Below, in pieces: positions 1-59,600 of a stretch of DNA of 64,000 bases. The stretch is taken from the NCBI RefSeq assembly GCF_018143015.1, contig NC_054742.1, positions 53,639,195-53,703,194 on the forward strand, given 5' to 3'. Each line of letters starts with the position of its first letter. Position 1 is the first letter of the stretch. Position numbers and translations under genes: made by a program. The notes under the pieces were generated by a model that saw only the letters and a list, made by a program, of their open reading frames with translations, was not told the origin of the DNA and did no database searches. The DNA comes from Lytechinus variegatus. Lineage: Eukaryota; Echinodermata; Echinoidea; Temnopleuroida; Toxopneustidae.

Positions 1-37057
<37,057 letters not shown>

Positions 37058-45329: not shown

Positions 45330-45380
45330 GTCGCAGCTGTGTGGAACGCTCACCGAAAATCAACAAAAAGGGCATGAAAT
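45330..45380 (+). other. EMC6: Candidate EMC6 leader exon (end only)
   Basis: A strong donor (gaaatgtaagt) at 45381 lies 800 bp upstream of the first certain EMC6 exon. Joined to 46180 it would create ATG AAA TAG, a two-codon upstream frame, and cannot supply the N-terminus. It may be an untranslated exon, or an intermediate coding exon may be missing. The left limit is arbitrary. Confidence 0.3.
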
Positions 45381-46179
45381 GTAAGTTTAATGATAATATA
45401 TTTTAATTTGAACTACTTAATTAATACTTTTAATGTATCCCCACCAAATGAAAGTCATATCACGTAACTCCAATTTGTATTAAGGCGTACATTTACCAAA
45501 GTCTTGGGTTGGAAATCAGAACAGCATTGTCTAACCCATATTTTTGGGTAATGTCGCCTATGAGGTCCATACATGTTAATGTTTGGACCTCATTGGTACT
45601 AGGAGTGTTAAAGGCTTAATTTTTACAATTTTAGAGGAAACATTTTGATGATAAACTGTCGATCCTAGGAGATAATTCTGGTTTCTGCTTGCAAGTATTT
45701 CGGGTTTTTAACATTGATTAACTGTTTTCTGAATATGTATTTTTACATTTTATATGCCTATTTTTTATTGCAATATTCAATATAAAATTAGCATTGTTTC
45801 TGAGGAGTTTTTGAAGATTTTCTTTTCTTTTTTTTGGGTCTGATTGATACAGTAGAGCCAGAAGAAGTCTCAGGAGAGTAGTATACTAATACTAACCTTG
45901 CAATACGTGTGAGTGCAGCAGAGCATATCCCTGACAGAAATAGATCTATTTATCGGTCTACTCTAGACTATAAAGTCAGAATCTAAATTGTATTGCCCAC
46001 CAAATAAACAGTTTGTCACTAGTGACACAACCATTCATGCATTGTCATGGTTGTGTTTATATTGGAGTTATGAAAAGTTTTAGCAAGGCATTATTTTAGC
46101 TGTTCAACCTTATTAAAGCTAATCTTTATTTGTGGTTTACACTCTCTTTCTCTTGATATTTTTTGTTCTGATTTTCTAG

Positions 46180-46343
46180 AGCAACCAGTAATATACAATG
46201 AGTTGGCTATAAGGGGAAATATGTCCATATTGGACTATTGTCGTACATTCATGTCGGCTATATCTGGATCAGCAGCAGGTATACTTGGTCTTACTGGACT
46301 TTATGGCTTCATCTTTTATTTCATCACAGCATTTTCTCTATCA
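46180..46343 (+). CDS. EMC6: EMC6 first certain coding exon
   Basis: Two bases then 54 codons, [20 protein letters not shown] ... FITAFSLS. Acceptor gattttctag, donor gtgagt, ends in phase 0. The codon split across the acceptor must be NAG with N from an unseen exon. Confidence 0.92.
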
Positions 46344-48413
46344 GTGAGTACTGTTCTTGATGCTTCCTCACTTACAAAACTTTGGAGGTTTTTTTTGTAA
46401 GAGCCACCAAGAATTATTTTGAGTTAAAAATGGGATATGCCTATGGATTTTATTTTTCCATTCAAGATGTTTACAAAATCATGCTGGAATTAATGAAGGA
46501 CTTGAACATGTCTGAGCTATTTAGATACCTAACAAAGAAGAGCTGAAATTCAACTGACCCCGATAAAAATATTCTTTCTGTTCACTTCTACATGTATGAT
46601 GTACTTTAAGGTATGATACGTGGAATACTTTTACTTCTCGAATTTATTTGCATTTCTGAATGTAAGTGAAGACCTTTCTCAACTATACTTTGTACAGTCT
46701 TTTGTCCTATATATATGCAGTCATGAAAAATGTGGAGCAAATTGTGATGTGATGCCAGGAAGAATATTGATATACTTGAGAGAACTGTCCACAGGTGTGC
46801 ATGTAGCATGCAAGTATTCTTTGTTCTGGGGAAAAAGTGTGATAAACTGGTACAATGTATATTTGTTTTTTCTCAACAGTTCATGTTGTTCTTGAAGACT
46901 GGTGGACAATGGCACAAATATTTCAGGATGAGACGACCTCTCTTGACACATGGACTGTTTGGTGGACTTTTTGTATCCTTTCCAGAATGAACTCTTTTAG
47001 AAATCTTCTGCTTTGCAATCATCTTTTTTAGTTCTTTATATTACTATGCCTCCGCTTTAGATAGATTGCCAGATGCATCATTGTTTTGGGTTGCCCGTCC
47101 TGTTTTGTTCTCGCAGTAACTAAACTGTTTAATGATTTAACTGGTCTAAGTATACATTTAGAAGAGATGTTGATCTGATTAGAAGTGGGTAATCAAGGTC
47201 AAAGGTCACTGTATTAACTGAGGACCATTTGATAGATCAATTTAAAGCATATAACCATTATGCATGTTGGCAGGACAGTAATCTGATTAGATTTCGGGGT
47301 CACAAGGTAAAAGTTAGGTCATTACATACCTGAAAATGCCTTATTTTGGGATTATTATAGAACTGTTTCATGGTTCATGTACTTTAAGCAAATGAGTTAG
47401 GATTAGTCTTATTCAACTAAAAGTAATGTATTATGATTTTACACACCAATAAGATATAGTAAATGGAGTTGTTGAAGTTAAGAAATTGACCACTTATGAT
47501 TTAAAATGTCTATTGTTTTGTGATCTATATAAGTTGTATAATTTGTAAATAGAAATTTTGAAGTCAGCTACATTTCATCAATCCCAGGTGATTTTACATA
47601 CGTGCAAGATTTACATCACATATCCTGTGTATTGAATTTTGAATTATTCTGTGTAACTGTTTATGAAGTTTATTTTCCTTGACTTCTTTTTTTGTCTCAG
47701 ACATACATCTTATTTTGGACGTATCCTTTACATTATGACGTCAACACTTATGTAGAAGAAAGTTTTCCATTTCGTCATTCCTGAAATAGAAATTTATGGG
47801 GAAAACAATGTGAGGGGTATAACGGTATTGCTTTATCATGGTATTGAAACTAGAATTGCATGATTTCATGTGAAGTTACCAGAATGATGTTCTGAGGCCC
47901 ATTTCATGAAGAGCTACAACTATTATAACTTTCAACTTTGCCATTTTGGCAACTTCCATGCTAAGAAGCCTAAACAGCTTATCAAAATCAAGGTTTCTAT
48001 GGTAGTTGCCATAATGACAGAATTACAATATTTGTAACGCTTTATGGAAAGGGCACCAAAACTGTTTTAGCCTACTGATGACAAGATCATAAGGTTCTGG
48101 GTGAATTGGTTAAAACCTAGATATCTACTCTGTTTTATCGTTCATGGTCTAATCTCATTTAATTTGTTAGTAGGACCATGAAGCATTGAAGTTTCCAATC
48201 CATCACAAATAACATTGACCAATCAATGTAATTGTTGCTTGTGCAATTGTGCATATTGTTCAGTTATCAGGCAGTAAGAATTATGATTTGAAATTTTCTA
48301 TTTATCGCAAATCTTCTCGTAAACAGGCCCAGGTCATTTGATAACCGTCTAATTGTTAACTTCCATAACTAGATCCGAACAGATTTCTCTATGGCATGGT
48401 GCACGTGTACTGA
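46180..48413 (+). CDS. EMC6: ER membrane protein complex subunit 6 (four coding exons placed)
   Basis: Small two-or-three-helix subunit of the EMC, which inserts tail-anchored and multipass proteins into the ER membrane. Exon translations give [60 protein letters not shown] and [16 protein letters not shown] stop, matching human EMC6 ([60 protein letters not shown]) almost position by position. 101 residues are placed, against 110 in human, so roughly 8 N-terminal residues are unassigned. Exon 2 to 3 uses an ordinary GT-AG intron; the last two introns have U12-type signals. Human EMC6 is, as I recall, intronless in its coding part, so this gene structure is notable. Confidence 0.95.
46880..46972 (+). 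CDS. EMC6: EMC6 exon, second transmembrane region and R-R-P loop
   Basis: 31 codons, [20 protein letters not shown] then [11 protein letters not shown]. Acceptor tctcaacag (U2-type). Donor GTATCCTTTCC, the full U12-type consensus. Confidence 0.94.
47701..47720 (+). CDS. EMC6: EMC6 20-nt microexon between two U12-type introns
   Basis: Encodes TYILFW plus AC of Thr, matching TYVLFWT. Preceded by TTTTCCTTGAC (U12 branch site, adenosine about 18 nt before the AG) and tttgtctcag; followed by GTATCCTTTAC. Reading through would replace the conserved tail by an unrelated one; splicing to 48383 restores it exactly. Confidence 0.93.
48383..48413 (+). CDS. EMC6: EMC6 last coding exon
   Basis: One base completing Thr, then FLYGMVHVY and stop TGA, identical to the human C-terminus. 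Acceptor gatccgaacag; TTCCATAAC, one mismatch from the U12 branch consensus, lies about 14 nt upstream. Confidence 0.94.
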
Positions 48414-49071: not shown

Positions 49072-49223
49072 ATACCTCAGTCACATTTGCTCTACGGCAG
49101 CCGTACGGCGAGTAGAAAACCGCCATTTTATTCAAACCACCTATATGTAACTGATACAAAAATGTTGAAACGGCCGTTTTCGACTCCCGTACAGCCGCCA
49201 TAGAGCAAATATGACCGAGGTAT
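49072..49223. mobile_element. Small palindromic MITE, copy 2
   Basis: Ends ATACCTCAGTCACATTTGCT and AGCAAATATGACCGAGGTAT are inverted. See copy 1 at 5702-5858. Confidence 0.8.
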
Positions 49224-49390
49224 AAGGATCCTTGTGAATTTACCAACCCCAGCTATCTTGGGTGAAATTCTTATTTCATGTTCATTAATACAATGGAGCA
49301 TCCGGTTCTCAATATAACAGCTCACAATTATACAAATAAGGGCATTACATGTATGTCTAGATGTTGGCTTATGTGGATCTTTCTATTATA

Positions 49391-50209
49391 CAGTGCGTCC
49401 CAGAATAAACGAAACCGAGATTTAGCGATCATTTTTCATAACTTAATCATAAATAGAATAGACAAATGACCTATCAATTTAAAGCTGAGAATCTCCTCTT
49501 TCATCTGATATTACTTAGGTTATTTCTCATTCACGCATGAGTGAGCAAAAACAATTTGAAGAAAGGATACCAAAAACTCATTTGGCGGGGGGTATCTGGG
49601 TTTCAAAAAGAAAACCACATTTCTGAAAAGTTCAATATCTGCTCTTTAATTTGGTGCCTAAATTACAGAAAATGGTCAAGAAATAAAAAAGTTCTGGTCA
49701 TTTGAAATAAGGCTTGTATTTTCATAATTTCATGAGATAAACGTGTTTCCACCGGTTTCTCACAGAAGCTTTCGTATGGTGAACAAAAGATTTAATGCAT
49801 GGCTGATCGTCAACAAAACAGAGTGTCGAGAGAGTTTGAAAGCCAGCCTGGAGAACCTCTTCATTTTATGAAATTATTGAAATTCAAGCCTTATTTCAAA
49901 TGACCAGAACTTTTTTATTTCTTGACTATTTTCTGCAATTTAGGTATCAAATTAAAGAGGAGATATTGAACTTTTCAGAAATGTGGTTTTCTTTTTAAAC
50001 CCAGATACCCCCCGCCAAATGAGTTTTTGGTATCCTTTTTTCAAATTGTTTTTGCTCACTCATGCGTGAATGAGAAATAATCTAAGTAACATCAGATGAA
50101 AGAGGAGATTCTAAGCTTTAAATTGGTAGGTCATTTGTCTATTTTATTTATGATTAAGTAATGATAAATGATCGCTAAATCTCGGTTTCGTTTTTTCTGG
50201 GACGCACTG
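49391..50209. mobile_element. 819-bp fold-back element, Tc1/mariner-like ends
   Basis: CAGTGCGTCCCAGAATAAAC at the left is mirrored by GGGACGCACTG at the right, flanked by TA on both sides. Arms of about 350 bp are nearly identical in inverted orientation around a centre of about 120 bp. No transposase. Superfamily inferred from the TA duplication and the terminal CAGTG. Confidence 0.85.
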
Positions 50210-53200
50210 TATAATCAACTGATAACTATCATGGATTAATCTATATGATTCAGAAATATTTGATTCTATTATGAATTTTCCTTCTTTTAGGTGATGTGAA
50301 GACTGTAAATTAGTTTGAAATTCTTACAAAAGAGAATTTTCTGATATTTTTTTGACAAGGGCAATCAAATACCAGTCTATAGGCTTATGTCAAAGCAGTG
50401 TTGAATTTTCTTTATAAATGGGTTTGGGTAGCACTAAATAGGAACAGACAGGTACAGTAATAAGTGTTCAGTGCAGACTAACAACAGATATAGATTTTTT
50501 TTCTTTCACATACGTGCATTGTTCAATAACAGACCGTGTGGGTCGACATGCTCAGTGCATTATCTGACTGGAAATGCATAAAGTTATGCAGTATATTCAT
50601 CATATATTTCTGACTATTTCCCCACCACTGCCCATCTTTCTTACCCCTTTTTATACAAAGGAAATGTATTATTTTGTATCCTCATGACTCAAGCTCACAA
50701 AATGAATGATCATGTTGAATTTTGAAGAAAAAATTTATTAATTTTTAAAGTAAATCCACCAGCAAACTTAGTTGCATTGTAAGAGTGTGTATCAAATCAC
50801 TACCGTTTTGTGTAAAGTGTATGTGTTCTAGCAACTCGAGTGAGTGGTGATAAGATACATGTAAGAAAACAGTTTGTATGTCAGTTACTATTTGAGATAT
50901 GTTTGTGCAATTATTTATGATTAAATCTGGTGTAAACTACACTTTGTGACTAAGACATTTGATTTCTCTGTATCAGTACTTAAAACTTTAATTTAGTTTT
51001 TGCTGGAAGAGAAAATGTTCAGTGGACGTACAGAATTAACATTTTTTCATACAAAGAATGAAAATGGTAAATAACATGGTGTTGGGAGAATTCTTTTAAC
51101 TTGTGCAAAAAAAGTATCCAAAGTTTTCTTTCTCTTCATTTTACCCTTCCAGGTTGGCAATAATCAGTTGATATTTAGTATCAATTAAATTTGAAAAGAT
51201 GCTTAGTACCACAAGATCTAAAACTGGTATGCTCAATATTTGAATAGCATATTATTGGGAGCAAAAGCAAGAACGAACAGAAAATGAAATCAATGAAAAC
51301 AGAAGTTAAAAAACTTGGTATTTCACTTTTTGCACCAGAAGTGTAATTTTGTGTAAATGAAATACCCAACAAAATTGATATTTTGAGAATAAGAATTGGA
51401 GAGACCCAGTGGAAGAGCAATCATAAGGTGCTATATCCGTGGTTTAATACTTTAATTTCCAACAAAATATTTTGTCCACGAGCTTACAAAAAGTGGATAG
51501 AAAGGAGTGAATAGAAGTAAAAATTGTATCACTGATTCTGAATTTTGTTAAAGAACTTTTGATCAAAGATCAGTGCATGTGATAAGTCATGTGAATAGTT
51601 GTCCAATAACTCAAATTCATATCTAGCGTAGCACGTTTTGCAATGAATGATACGGTTATTTGGTTCTTATAATCATGGCAATGCAGTCATCAATGATGTT
51701 TTATCTAGATGAGATTGCAGATTATAAGTAAGTCATTTTAAGTAAATCGGTGAGGGGCTTGTTTCATTTAACTCATCAATGACAAGTTACAACCTTCTTT
51801 TATAAGCTTCTGAATAGGTGCAATTTCATTGTCTGAGAGAATTACAATATTGAATTCTAGCATTTGTTACATGTTTTATGAAATGAACCAAGATCTGGAA
51901 TGCTGTGTTCAACAATAAATACAGGACAAGCCTTGATATAGTTTTTTCAAAATATTGTATACTTTAATATTCAATACGCCATATTAAATGTATGCATCCT
52001 AGTAGGTTACACATTAATCTATTTAAAAAAATTAACCACAACACTCGTGACTCCTCACATTGCACATCACAAAATATCACATAAACAAATTGTTTTATCA
52101 TATAAATTTTGTGTAGAAAGGCAACCATCAATTTTATGAAGCACTCTTGAAGAAAAATATACTGAATTTTAAATGTATTAGGTTCACTGAATTCCATTAA
52201 TAATATTAATTGAATGAAATAACTTGAATATCTGATTATGAATTGATATTAGTACTGTATGTTTTATAGTGTATAAATTATATACCATATTCTAAATTCT
52301 TGAAAAAAATTATTTAATTGGACATGTATTTTATAACTGACATCTACATCACAAGAGATTAAAGACTTTCTTTTTTCTCATTAATTTATACAAAACTACC
52401 ATCATCAAGACTGGTCTTGCTTGAATCTGGTAAACTTAGAGAGGGTATATGTTAATAGTACATAATTTAGTATCAACAGATTCATGAAAAGGGTGATGAG
52501 CTCCAAATACATTGTTTCATGGTGAAATGACACAACAAAATGAATAATGAATTACCCTAAAGTAATGACATATCACTGCTATTCGTCAATAGGGTTCCTA
52601 AAAGCATATCTTCTAGAACATACAGTATATCCAAATTGGACAATAACAAATCAAATAAACTTGTTAACAAAAAATAGTGCCAAAAGAAATTAATATACAC
52701 AACTCATATAAAAACAAACCATGAATATATTTTACTTATGAAAATGAAGTAACATTCTAGGCATACTGGTATTCAAAACTCCAATATCAAACTCATGAAT
52801 TCAATTGAAAAGAATAAAAACTCCATTTACAAAACTGAATGTTGACCAATATAGTCAAAGAGGCTGAAGTTTTTATTTCTTAACCTGTACCTCACAGGGT
52901 ATTTTAAAAACAAAAGTATTAGGAAACATTTCCATAGACTAATATACATATTTAAAGGTTCATACTACCTTGTCTGATGTGAAGGGTATGTGTAGCTAAA
53001 CAACAAGAGAAAACACACAAAATGCAAGGTATTTAAATAAAATCACATTTTCACTCAATCACTTGAAATGCTAAATATCTTATTTAATTAAAAAGTATTT
53101 TGTTGCAGACAACAGATAATCACAATTCAAAATCACTTTACTTCTATATTATTTTATGCATGCATTATATTCACATAACTGCTATACAGAAAAAACTCTA

Positions 53201-56653: not shown

Positions 56654-59600
56654 CTGTCAAGAAAAAAGAAGGATACCATGCAAAATGGTCAACTGCATAA
56701 TCCTGTCAAGAATATGGACAATGGTAAAAAGTTATCACTGATCTGATTTATAATGTACAATTTTAATTCTATAAAGCGCATTGAGAGTCCTTACAGGTCT
56801 GATATGTGCTATATAAATACTACATTATCATCATTTTTATCATTATTGGACATGTTGAATATGATGGTAAAGATTCCTCTATGACCTCAAATGACATTTC
56901 ACCCAACAATGATGGGAAGATCACCTAACTATCTAAACTTTGCTTGTAAGCATACCACTACCTATAGAGTTATTTGACCTTCAATATGACCTATCACTAA
57001 AAACTATTCAAAATATCATTAACAAAAACTACCACAAAGTGTTGACTGTTGACACAGAGAAAGACAAAGATATACATGGAGGTATAACTAGATCATATTT
57101 AATGACAAATCATAATTTGATGATCTTTTCCCAAGCTCTTTCAATATATTATGTTCACAATGTCTGCCCGAATTCTTTGGCACATGCGTTTTATTTATAC
57201 AAACAGACACTTTGGTGGTCATTTAATTGGATTCAGTACGAACTCATTTTGATATCGTTACCAAAACTAGCATTTACCTAATTAAAATTCACTTAAAAAT
57301 GCCGACTATATAAAACTTACTCGTAACTTCCAATAATTAATGGAAATCTCTGGTGCTATCTTATCTTTCCACTTTGGCAAAGCATCTTCTCTTAAATCCT
57401 ACATATGTAAAACAAAAATCATAAAATCGTTATTTAAACTGTTAGACAATTTTAAAACCATGTTACCTATATGAAATGGCAAAAGATGGTAAGTCATAAC
57501 CAAATATATCAAAAACTATACTGAATCACATACAGCAATATTATATAGTTTGTATTTAATTTGAAATCATATTATATCAATTTGTGATAGGGTGGTTAAT
57601 AATTTGCTTTATAAGCAATTTTCTTTGGATTTGAAGCAGGACAAACAGAAGAAAAATGGTAAAGGTTATCACTGTTCTGATTTATAATGTATAATTTTAT
57701 TTCTATAAAGCGCACTGAGAATCCTTACAGGTCTGAAATGCACTATATAAAAACTACATCATTATCATCATCATCACCATCATCATCACCATCAAGATCA
57801 TCACCATCATCATCGTCAACACCACCAACATCATCCTCATCATTTGATATACCTTGAGAAGCTTAGTGTAAGTAATGACAGCTTCCTCCTCAAGGTAACC
57901 TACAAATCGATGGCAGAACTTTGGACTTATCAGGTATGAGATGAAGAACATGTTCACAAAGATACCTGAAAAGCATTACAAAAATAAAATCAAGACAAAT
58001 AAAAAAGTATAAGTTATCATAAACAAAAACAAGCTGGAATATATTCCAAAATATTTCATATTGTGTAATACTCCCTATTTTCTTCACAAGCAAGGAAATG
58101 AAAGAAAGCAAGTAAAATATGAAATAACAATATACAGCTTTATGGGGTTGATGAGAGATTGATTCTAGAGGTCTGTGGATAGGAAAGAAGAGACAATATT
58201 TGTACAATAGTACACTTTTCATTCATTCCAAAATAACAGTTAACATTTTTCAATCCATACCACATTTATATAACTTTTTCATTTTTTTTTCAAAACAATT
58301 ATGGCTCATTTCTGGTCTGCGATTTTCCTTAATTAAACAACATCCTTCATATCTTCCTTCTGATATGCTTTTAAATACTTTCATTATCAAACGTGTAGAC
58401 AAGGAAGTTATTAATTTACATCCATCTTACCTTGTGCCCCTAACACCATCAAACGAAAGAACATTGATGGTTGCTTGATCTCAAGAGCTGTCATCAGATG
58501 CATTCTTTCATTTTCAGCTTCCTCTAAAAATATAAAAGGTATATAGAGCAAAGTTTCATAAGGAATTCAACTGACAAGCTTTTTCACAAATGGCCAAGTT
58601 GGGTTTTGTAAAATTCAAGCATTAGTGGCAAATAGCACTATCTGAAGGCATAACACTTTATACCATAAACTTACTACAAAATTTATTCCCATTTTTTCAA
58701 GTTGTTTCATTATACTCTTTTATCATTTCAACCACCACCATAAATGACAGCTATTAGCAGCACTATTTTCATCATGCTGAATATCCAAACCACACCATTA
58801 CCATCAAAGTGGTCATCAATCATCATCATCATGATCATCATCATCATCATCATCATCCTCATCATCTCAATCATCATCACCATCCTCATCAACATCATTA
58901 TCACCATCATCATCATTATCACCATAATCATCACCATCATCACCATCAACATCATTATCACCATCATCCTCATCCTCCACCTCCTCATCACCATCATCAT
59001 CACCATCCTCCTCCTCCTCATCATCATCATCATCATTCATCAACTAATCATCATCCTCGCAATCGTCATTGCTATCAAGACTATTAATACTCTCAATGCA
59101 AGATCATTACGATAAACACCACCACCATTACCACCCCAAATCTACCACGCCCTCTACGGTTGACATCACTCTCTCTTTGGTTACCTAATAGAGTATGAAT
59201 CCAGCCATGGTCTCTCTGCATCCTTCTTAAGGAGCGAAGATGTCTTGACATAGCTGCCACCATACCAGGAACTCCTGCTACAGTTTCCAGGAATATGATA
59301 CGACTAAACGAATGAAATGTGTCAATATTGAATTTTAATTGGAAGGTAGTAAAATGTTTGCATGCATTAAAAAAAAATAAAGAAAAATACAAACAAGACC
59401 CTTCAGTTATTCTTTAACAATCAGTAAGCAAGGTTTTATCTACATTCAAATACATTTTAGGTTAGCATCGTGGATGGAAAAATTGGGAGCTTCTGATAAA
59501 ATGTTAATGTTCCCATTCAGTGTAATAAAAGCTTATCTAAACAAATAATGACATTATGGGTCAATAATTACATATGAATCAAAGGCAGTTGCACTACAGA

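Follow-up and report, generated by a model that had tools for sequence, protein, structure and literature searches.

Two consecutive U12-type introns flank a 20-nt coding exon in a predicted EMC6 gene of Lytechinus variegatus

We analysed a 64,000-nt stretch of Lytechinus variegatus DNA (GCF_018143015.1, contig NC_054742.1, forward-strand positions 53,639,195 to 53,703,194), called the window below and numbered from its first letter. The window holds a complete EMC6 gene on the plus strand (45374-48413), whose five coding exons encode 101 amino acids in an intact frame. An earlier note, made from the letters without database searches, had named this gene EMC6, and homology bears the name out. 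The predicted protein matches two distinct solved EMC6 chains (E = 8.7e-43 and 1.2e-42) over residues 6-101, that is, through its last residue, and the Pfam EMC6 profile (PF07019) scores 83.4 bits (E = 1.6e-23), above the curated cut-off of 23.3. The 5′ part, with a 7-nt coding exon 1, is predicted from the reading frame alone. Two AG acceptors, separated by 11 nt, are candidates for intron 1: the upstream one leads to an in-frame stop, whereas the junction at 46188/46189 gives an open frame. The human EMC6 coding region is not known to contain an intron. Pattern searches for EMC6 returned 15 matches in viral contigs and 80 in prokaryote genomes, none of them confirmed, as expected for collections without eukaryotes; Rfam at its gathering threshold gave no match in the 64-kb window. 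The parts of the gene are listed in Table 1.

Table 1. Predicted exons, introns and U12 branch sites of the EMC6 gene (window coordinates).
Feature	Position	Strand	Signals and basis
EMC6 exon 1, coding part ATGAAAT (7 nt), ends in phase 1	45374-45380	+	start codon; sole in-frame join to exon 2 found
Intron 1, major type, GTAAGT...CCAG, 808 nt	45381-46188	+	donor 3/7 U12, 4/4 RAGT; best branch 6/9
EMC6 exon 2, 155 nt	46189-46343	+	gene model, solved-chain match
Intron 2, major type, GTGAGT...ACAG, 536 nt	46344-46879	+	donor 1/7 U12, 4/4 RAGT
EMC6 exon 3, 93 nt, phase 0 at both ends	46880-46972	+	gene model, solved-chain match
Intron 3, U12-type GT-AG, 728 nt, phase 0	46973-47700	+	donor GTATCCTTTCC at 46973, 7/7; branch 9/9; acceptor CAG ends at 47700
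Predicted U12 branch site of intron 3, TTCCTTGAC, branch A at 47682	47675-47683	+	9/9
Microexon ACATACATCTTATTTTGGAC, 20 nt, TYILFW plus two bases of T, flanked by introns 3 and 4	47701-47720	+	gene model, enumeration, signal-only scan
Intron 4, U12-type GT-AG, 662 nt, phase 2	47721-48382	+	donor GTATCCTTTAC at 47721, 7/7; branch 8/9; acceptor CAG ends at 48382
Predicted U12 branch site of intron 4, TTCCATAAC, branch A at 48368	48361-48369	+	8/9
Last coding exon, FLYGMVHVY plus stop, 31 coding nt	48383-48413	+	gene model, solved-chain match

Several other features share the window. On the minus strand, a SMARCC (SWI/SNF subunit) gene with large introns, which served as a source of control introns, occupies about 20190-33764 and perhaps extends to 6145; five of its stretches match SMARCC1, SMARCC2 or yeast relatives, and one matches the SWIRM-associated domain. 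Also on the minus strand is an alternative oxidase (AOX) exon at 59096-59413 (Pfam AOX, 6.3e-20; solved alternative oxidases, E = 9.5e-15). Downstream of EMC6, a short inverted repeat at 49072-49223 (plus strand) has 37-nt arms that are 86% alike. A longer one at 49385-50215 (plus strand) looks like a hairpin-type mobile element, with 229-nt arms at 95% (49385-49613 and 49987-50215) and inner 143-nt arms at 91%; two of the window's five GTATCCTTT words lie within its arms. At 23666-24344 (plus strand), the word TTCATTGAC recurs five times (23666, 23829, 23981, 24144 and 24336), which suggests a tandem repeat.

Both donors of introns 3 and 4 begin with GTATCCTTT and match the U12 consensus ATCCTTT at every position from +3 to +9 (7/7 each), whereas 11 other donors in the window reach 0-3/7; these scores are simple match counts rather than the output of trained matrices, and the consensus is general background on the class, not one trained on a U12 intron set. 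The control donors comprise eight from SMARCC, one from AOX and two from EMC6, with exon edges set by eye. Of the nine SMARCC and AOX donors, six come after exons with a match to solved structures, and the other three (after exons ending QLD, ADD and ISK) are placed by open frames only. Matches to the U1-type RAGT at +3 to +6 number 1/4 in the donors of introns 3 and 4, compared to 2-4/4 in the 11 controls. For the branch site, we took the best match to TTCCTTRAC within the final 40 nt of each intron. Introns 3 and 4 score 9/9 and 8/9, and the best motif in eight other acceptors (EMC6 introns 1 and 2 and six SMARCC introns) scores 5-7/9. U12-type donors and branch motifs are thus present in both introns where the earlier note had located them, and its expectation that they would not score below ordinary introns holds, in this simple form, for both signals.

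Between the branch A and the exon lie 18 nt for intron 3 and 14 nt for intron 4. Pyrimidines make up 15 of the last 20 bases before the exon in intron 3, 14 in intron 2 and 9 in intron 4. The last exonic base ahead of the donor is T for intron 3 and C for intron 4, and a non-G at −1 is in line with the bias against G reported for U12 GT-AG introns in passages of PMC10853781. Passages of a 2012 review (PMC3584512) give the 5′ splice site and the branch sequence as the defining features of U12-type introns, list a missing polypyrimidine tract as a further characteristic beside these two, and put the optimal distance from branch to 3′ splice site at 11-13 nt. Taken one at a time, introns 3 and 4 look ordinary for the U12 type; it is the arrangement of both that looks unusual.

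The exon between them is 20 nt long, with the edges that the earlier note had drawn, and encodes residues within the conserved tail, the third membrane helix of EMC6. To place these edges, we enumerated 20,097 two-intron models with the upstream exons fixed, drawing donors from GT, GC and AT and acceptors from AG and AC, and compared their tails with a solved EMC6. The model in Table 1 ranks first, with a score of 145. The runner-up, at 140, makes intron 3 an AT-AC intron displaced by two bases, with an exon of 18 nt and without the U12 AT-AC donor consensus, and the models ranked next have AT or AC termini. Among single-intron models with tails longer than 10 and shorter than 60 aa, those in which exon 3 runs straight into the last exon reach at most 95, compared to 145.

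Translating the possible products shows what each splicing outcome does to the protein. When the microexon is included, the conserved EMC6 tail is rebuilt. When it is skipped, the frame shifts and the product is 98 aa with an altered tail. If intron 4 is retained, the product has 112 aa and its tail is unrelated; if intron 3 is retained, with or without intron 4, the product has 90 aa. Mis-splicing therefore destroys the conserved tail, as had been claimed, and correct EMC6 requires that introns 3 and 4 be removed at exactly these edges. On this predicted gene model, a conserved membrane protein seems to rely on rare machinery twice in succession for its final segment. Regulated inclusion that keeps the frame is typical of neural-class microexons; because 20 nt is not a multiple of three and skipping shifts the frame, we do not class the EMC6 exon with the regulated neural type.

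Counted by themselves, the words for donor and branch are unremarkable in the window; what is special is where they stand. RTATCCTT occurs 11 times against 6.92 expected, a count reached in 9 of 100 shuffles, and TTCCTTRAC with at most one mismatch occurs 52 times against 38.06 expected, a count reached in 1 of 100 shuffles. The word GTATCCTTT stands at 5 of the 6,539 GT sites on both strands. Two of the five are the exact junctions demanded by protein homology; the remaining sites are at 49570 and 50030, in the arms of the hairpin repeat, and at 21994 on the minus strand. We also scanned both strands, without protein information, for two U12-like introns around an exon of 3-60 nt, using thresholds chosen after the locus had been seen. 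At 7/7 the scan returns a single microexon, 47701-47720, with possible last acceptors at 48383 and 49944, the second of which would not yield the EMC6 tail. The same microexon is returned at 6/7, with one extra upstream donor, and at 5/7 an additional 42-nt candidate appears inside the hairpin repeat. In shuffles of one strand, such an arrangement is held by 0 of 100 sequences at 7/7, 0 of 100 at 6/7 and 11 of 100 at 5/7.

A duplication of one intron into the other is unsupported. Introns 3 and 4 have 15 of 18 donor-side bases in common, but nine of these are consensus. Positions +10 to +18 share 6/9, a level attained by 1.7% of sampled 9-mer pairs. Aligned over their whole length, the introns score 27 against a mean of 23.7, near chance (38 of 300 shuffles reach 27).

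We consider it probable that the locus is an ordinary, functional EMC6 gene whose 20-nt coding exon is constitutive and sits between two minor-spliceosome (U12-type) introns in a row. A separate U11/U12 di-snRNP would recognise each intron as a whole, with U11 on GTATCCTTT and U12 on the branch motif, and the minor spliceosome would remove introns 3 and 4. The microexon could do without recognition across it, because both of its edges would be pinned by strong signals within the neighbouring introns. Both removals would be required to write the conserved EMC6 tail. That the U11/U12 di-snRNP recognises both sites of one intron together is described in passages of PMC8329584.

The strong dependence on the minor spliceosome that the earlier note had put forward is supported, by inference, because neither donor fits U1 (RAGT at 1/4 only). 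Since skipping of the microexon or retention of either intron leads to a defective protein, EMC6 output should fall if minor splicing fails, and as far as can be predicted from the DNA, EMC6 should be sensitive to minor-splicing loss. Constitutive use would be favoured because skipping shifts the frame and because alternative splicing at U12-type introns is stated to be rare; passages of the 2012 review describe it as almost entirely absent in humans (PMC3584512). Some features fit less well, and they concern intron 3. Its end resembles a polypyrimidine tract (15/20), its branch distance of 18 nt is beyond the reported 11-13 nt optimum, and it is in phase 0, the less common phase among minor introns (22% on average, according to passages of PMC10639083). 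Judged by the protein alone, the AT-AC alternative for intron 3 is close behind (140 vs 145).

The earlier note had seen in the microexon a candidate splicing switch, which our results do not support and which we find unlikely. Under such regulation, low minor-spliceosome activity would cause the microexon to be skipped or intron 3 or 4 to be kept, tuning the level or the tail of EMC6 on purpose. Each failure does have a distinct product (98, 112 or 90 aa), and, with no later junction known, the stops of the skipped and intron-4-retained products would be expected to escape nonsense-mediated decay. A role as switches has been proposed for minor introns (PMC3728624), and minor-spliceosome failure in mutants and patients raises skipping around minor introns (passages of PMC8034651). 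However, regulated microexons tend to be in frame (passages of PMC13149111), whereas the 20-nt exon shifts the frame when skipped and belongs to the most conserved segment of the protein. Local RNA structure and pairing between the introns are at chance level as well: the fold has a z of 0.96, with 172 of 200 shuffles folding at least as well, and the inverted alignment of introns 3 and 4 scores 28 against a mean of 23.5, reached by 24 of 300 shuffles. On the same near-chance alignment (24/300) and local fold (z of 0.96), we reject as unsupported a looping-out of the microexon by the 21-nt inverted repeat (86%) that links introns 3 and 4.

A minor-minor exon-definition unit is also unlikely. 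Here one U11/U12 di-snRNP would bridge the microexon before rearranging to intron-spanning complexes, U12 sitting at the branch site (47682) and U11 at the donor (47721), only 39 nt apart. Were this true, one pre-joined particle would define an exon whose length should leave no room for two separate snRNPs. Exon-definition contacts between the minor and the major spliceosome are described in passages of PMC8329584 and PMC8034651; for an exon with minor introns on both sides, we found no such contacts in the open-access literature, as far as the passages retrieved from it extend.

The pyrimidine-rich end, long branch distance and phase 0 of intron 3 raise the possibility that its acceptor might also serve the major spliceosome, which would pair it with the donor of intron 2 and drop exon 3 in frame. 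Exon 3 lends itself to this, having 93 nt, 31 codons and phase 0 at both ends, and its loss would cost the product 31 conserved residues. According to passages of PMC10853781, dual-type 3′ sites exist in human genes but are rare among U12-type 3′ sites, and inhibition of the minor spliceosome raises skipping around minor introns (also in passages of PMC8034651). We regard dual use of this acceptor as improbable.

It is most unlikely that the major spliceosome removes introns 3 and 4 and that the resemblance of their signals to U12 sites is a remnant or an accident. Either machinery can act on GT-AG termini, the end of intron 3 is pyrimidine-rich, and some introns with GTATCC donors are listed as misclassified major-type (PMC10853781, Table 1, as excerpted). 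Nevertheless, RAGT matches stop at 1/4 in both donors vs 2-4/4 in the 11 controls, intron 4 is without a pyrimidine tract, and none of the 100 shuffles holds the arrangement at 7/7 or 6/7. An erroneous gene model or an EMC6 pseudogene, with a microexon that is not real, is equally hard to credit: the model is predicted from the DNA, exon 1 has only 7 coding nt and the intron 1 acceptor lies 11 nt past another AG, but the frame is complete and conserved to the final residue, and the best model stands clear of other well-formed GT-AG alternatives.

If the constitutive exon between two minor introns is as we read it, a core ER insertase subunit depends on the minor spliceosome twice over. With a strong U12-type intron on either side, the 20-nt exon would also be a clean natural substrate for distinguishing intron-by-intron from cross-exon recognition. 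An old and conserved arrangement would limit models of minor-intron loss, and a young one would be an instance of minor-intron gain, for which passages of a pan-eukaryotic survey report very little evidence (PMC10639083).

Compared to known U12-type GT-AG introns, introns 3 and 4 are alike in their donor and branch motifs, in the non-G at −1 and in being mixed with major introns (1 and 2) in one gene, as is typical. Intron 3 differs in its pyrimidine-rich end and 18-nt branch distance, and the pair differs in that the two follow one another only 20 nt apart. Passages of PMC3584512 count about 50 human genes with two U12-type introns, and minor introns cluster in genes beyond chance in 21 of 21 genomes tested (passages of PMC7367187). 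EMC6 resembles such genes in the count of its U12-type introns, but here they are consecutive and bound a microexon. Microexons are defined as 3-15 nt or as up to 51 nt (passages of PMC13149111), and the EMC6 exon, as a very short coding exon of 20 nt, falls within the wider definition and outside the narrower one. Unlike them, it has a length not divisible by three, codes for a conserved and essential segment and is flanked by minor rather than major introns. The USSE (U11-binding splicing enhancer) of SNRNP48 and RNPC3 is similar in having two U12-type 5′ splice-site sequences per transcript, but its tandem element is not used as donors (passages of PMC8329584), whereas in EMC6 the two sites are 748 nt apart, each at a coding junction and placed as real donors. 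In the open-access literature, which leaves subscription journals mostly outside and is therefore weak evidence, we found no paper that pairs EMC6 with a minor intron or U12, or TMEM93 with U12, and the passages retrieved describe no microexon between two minor introns. Introns 3 and 4 themselves belong to an established type; we regard their back-to-back arrangement around a microexon as a variant.
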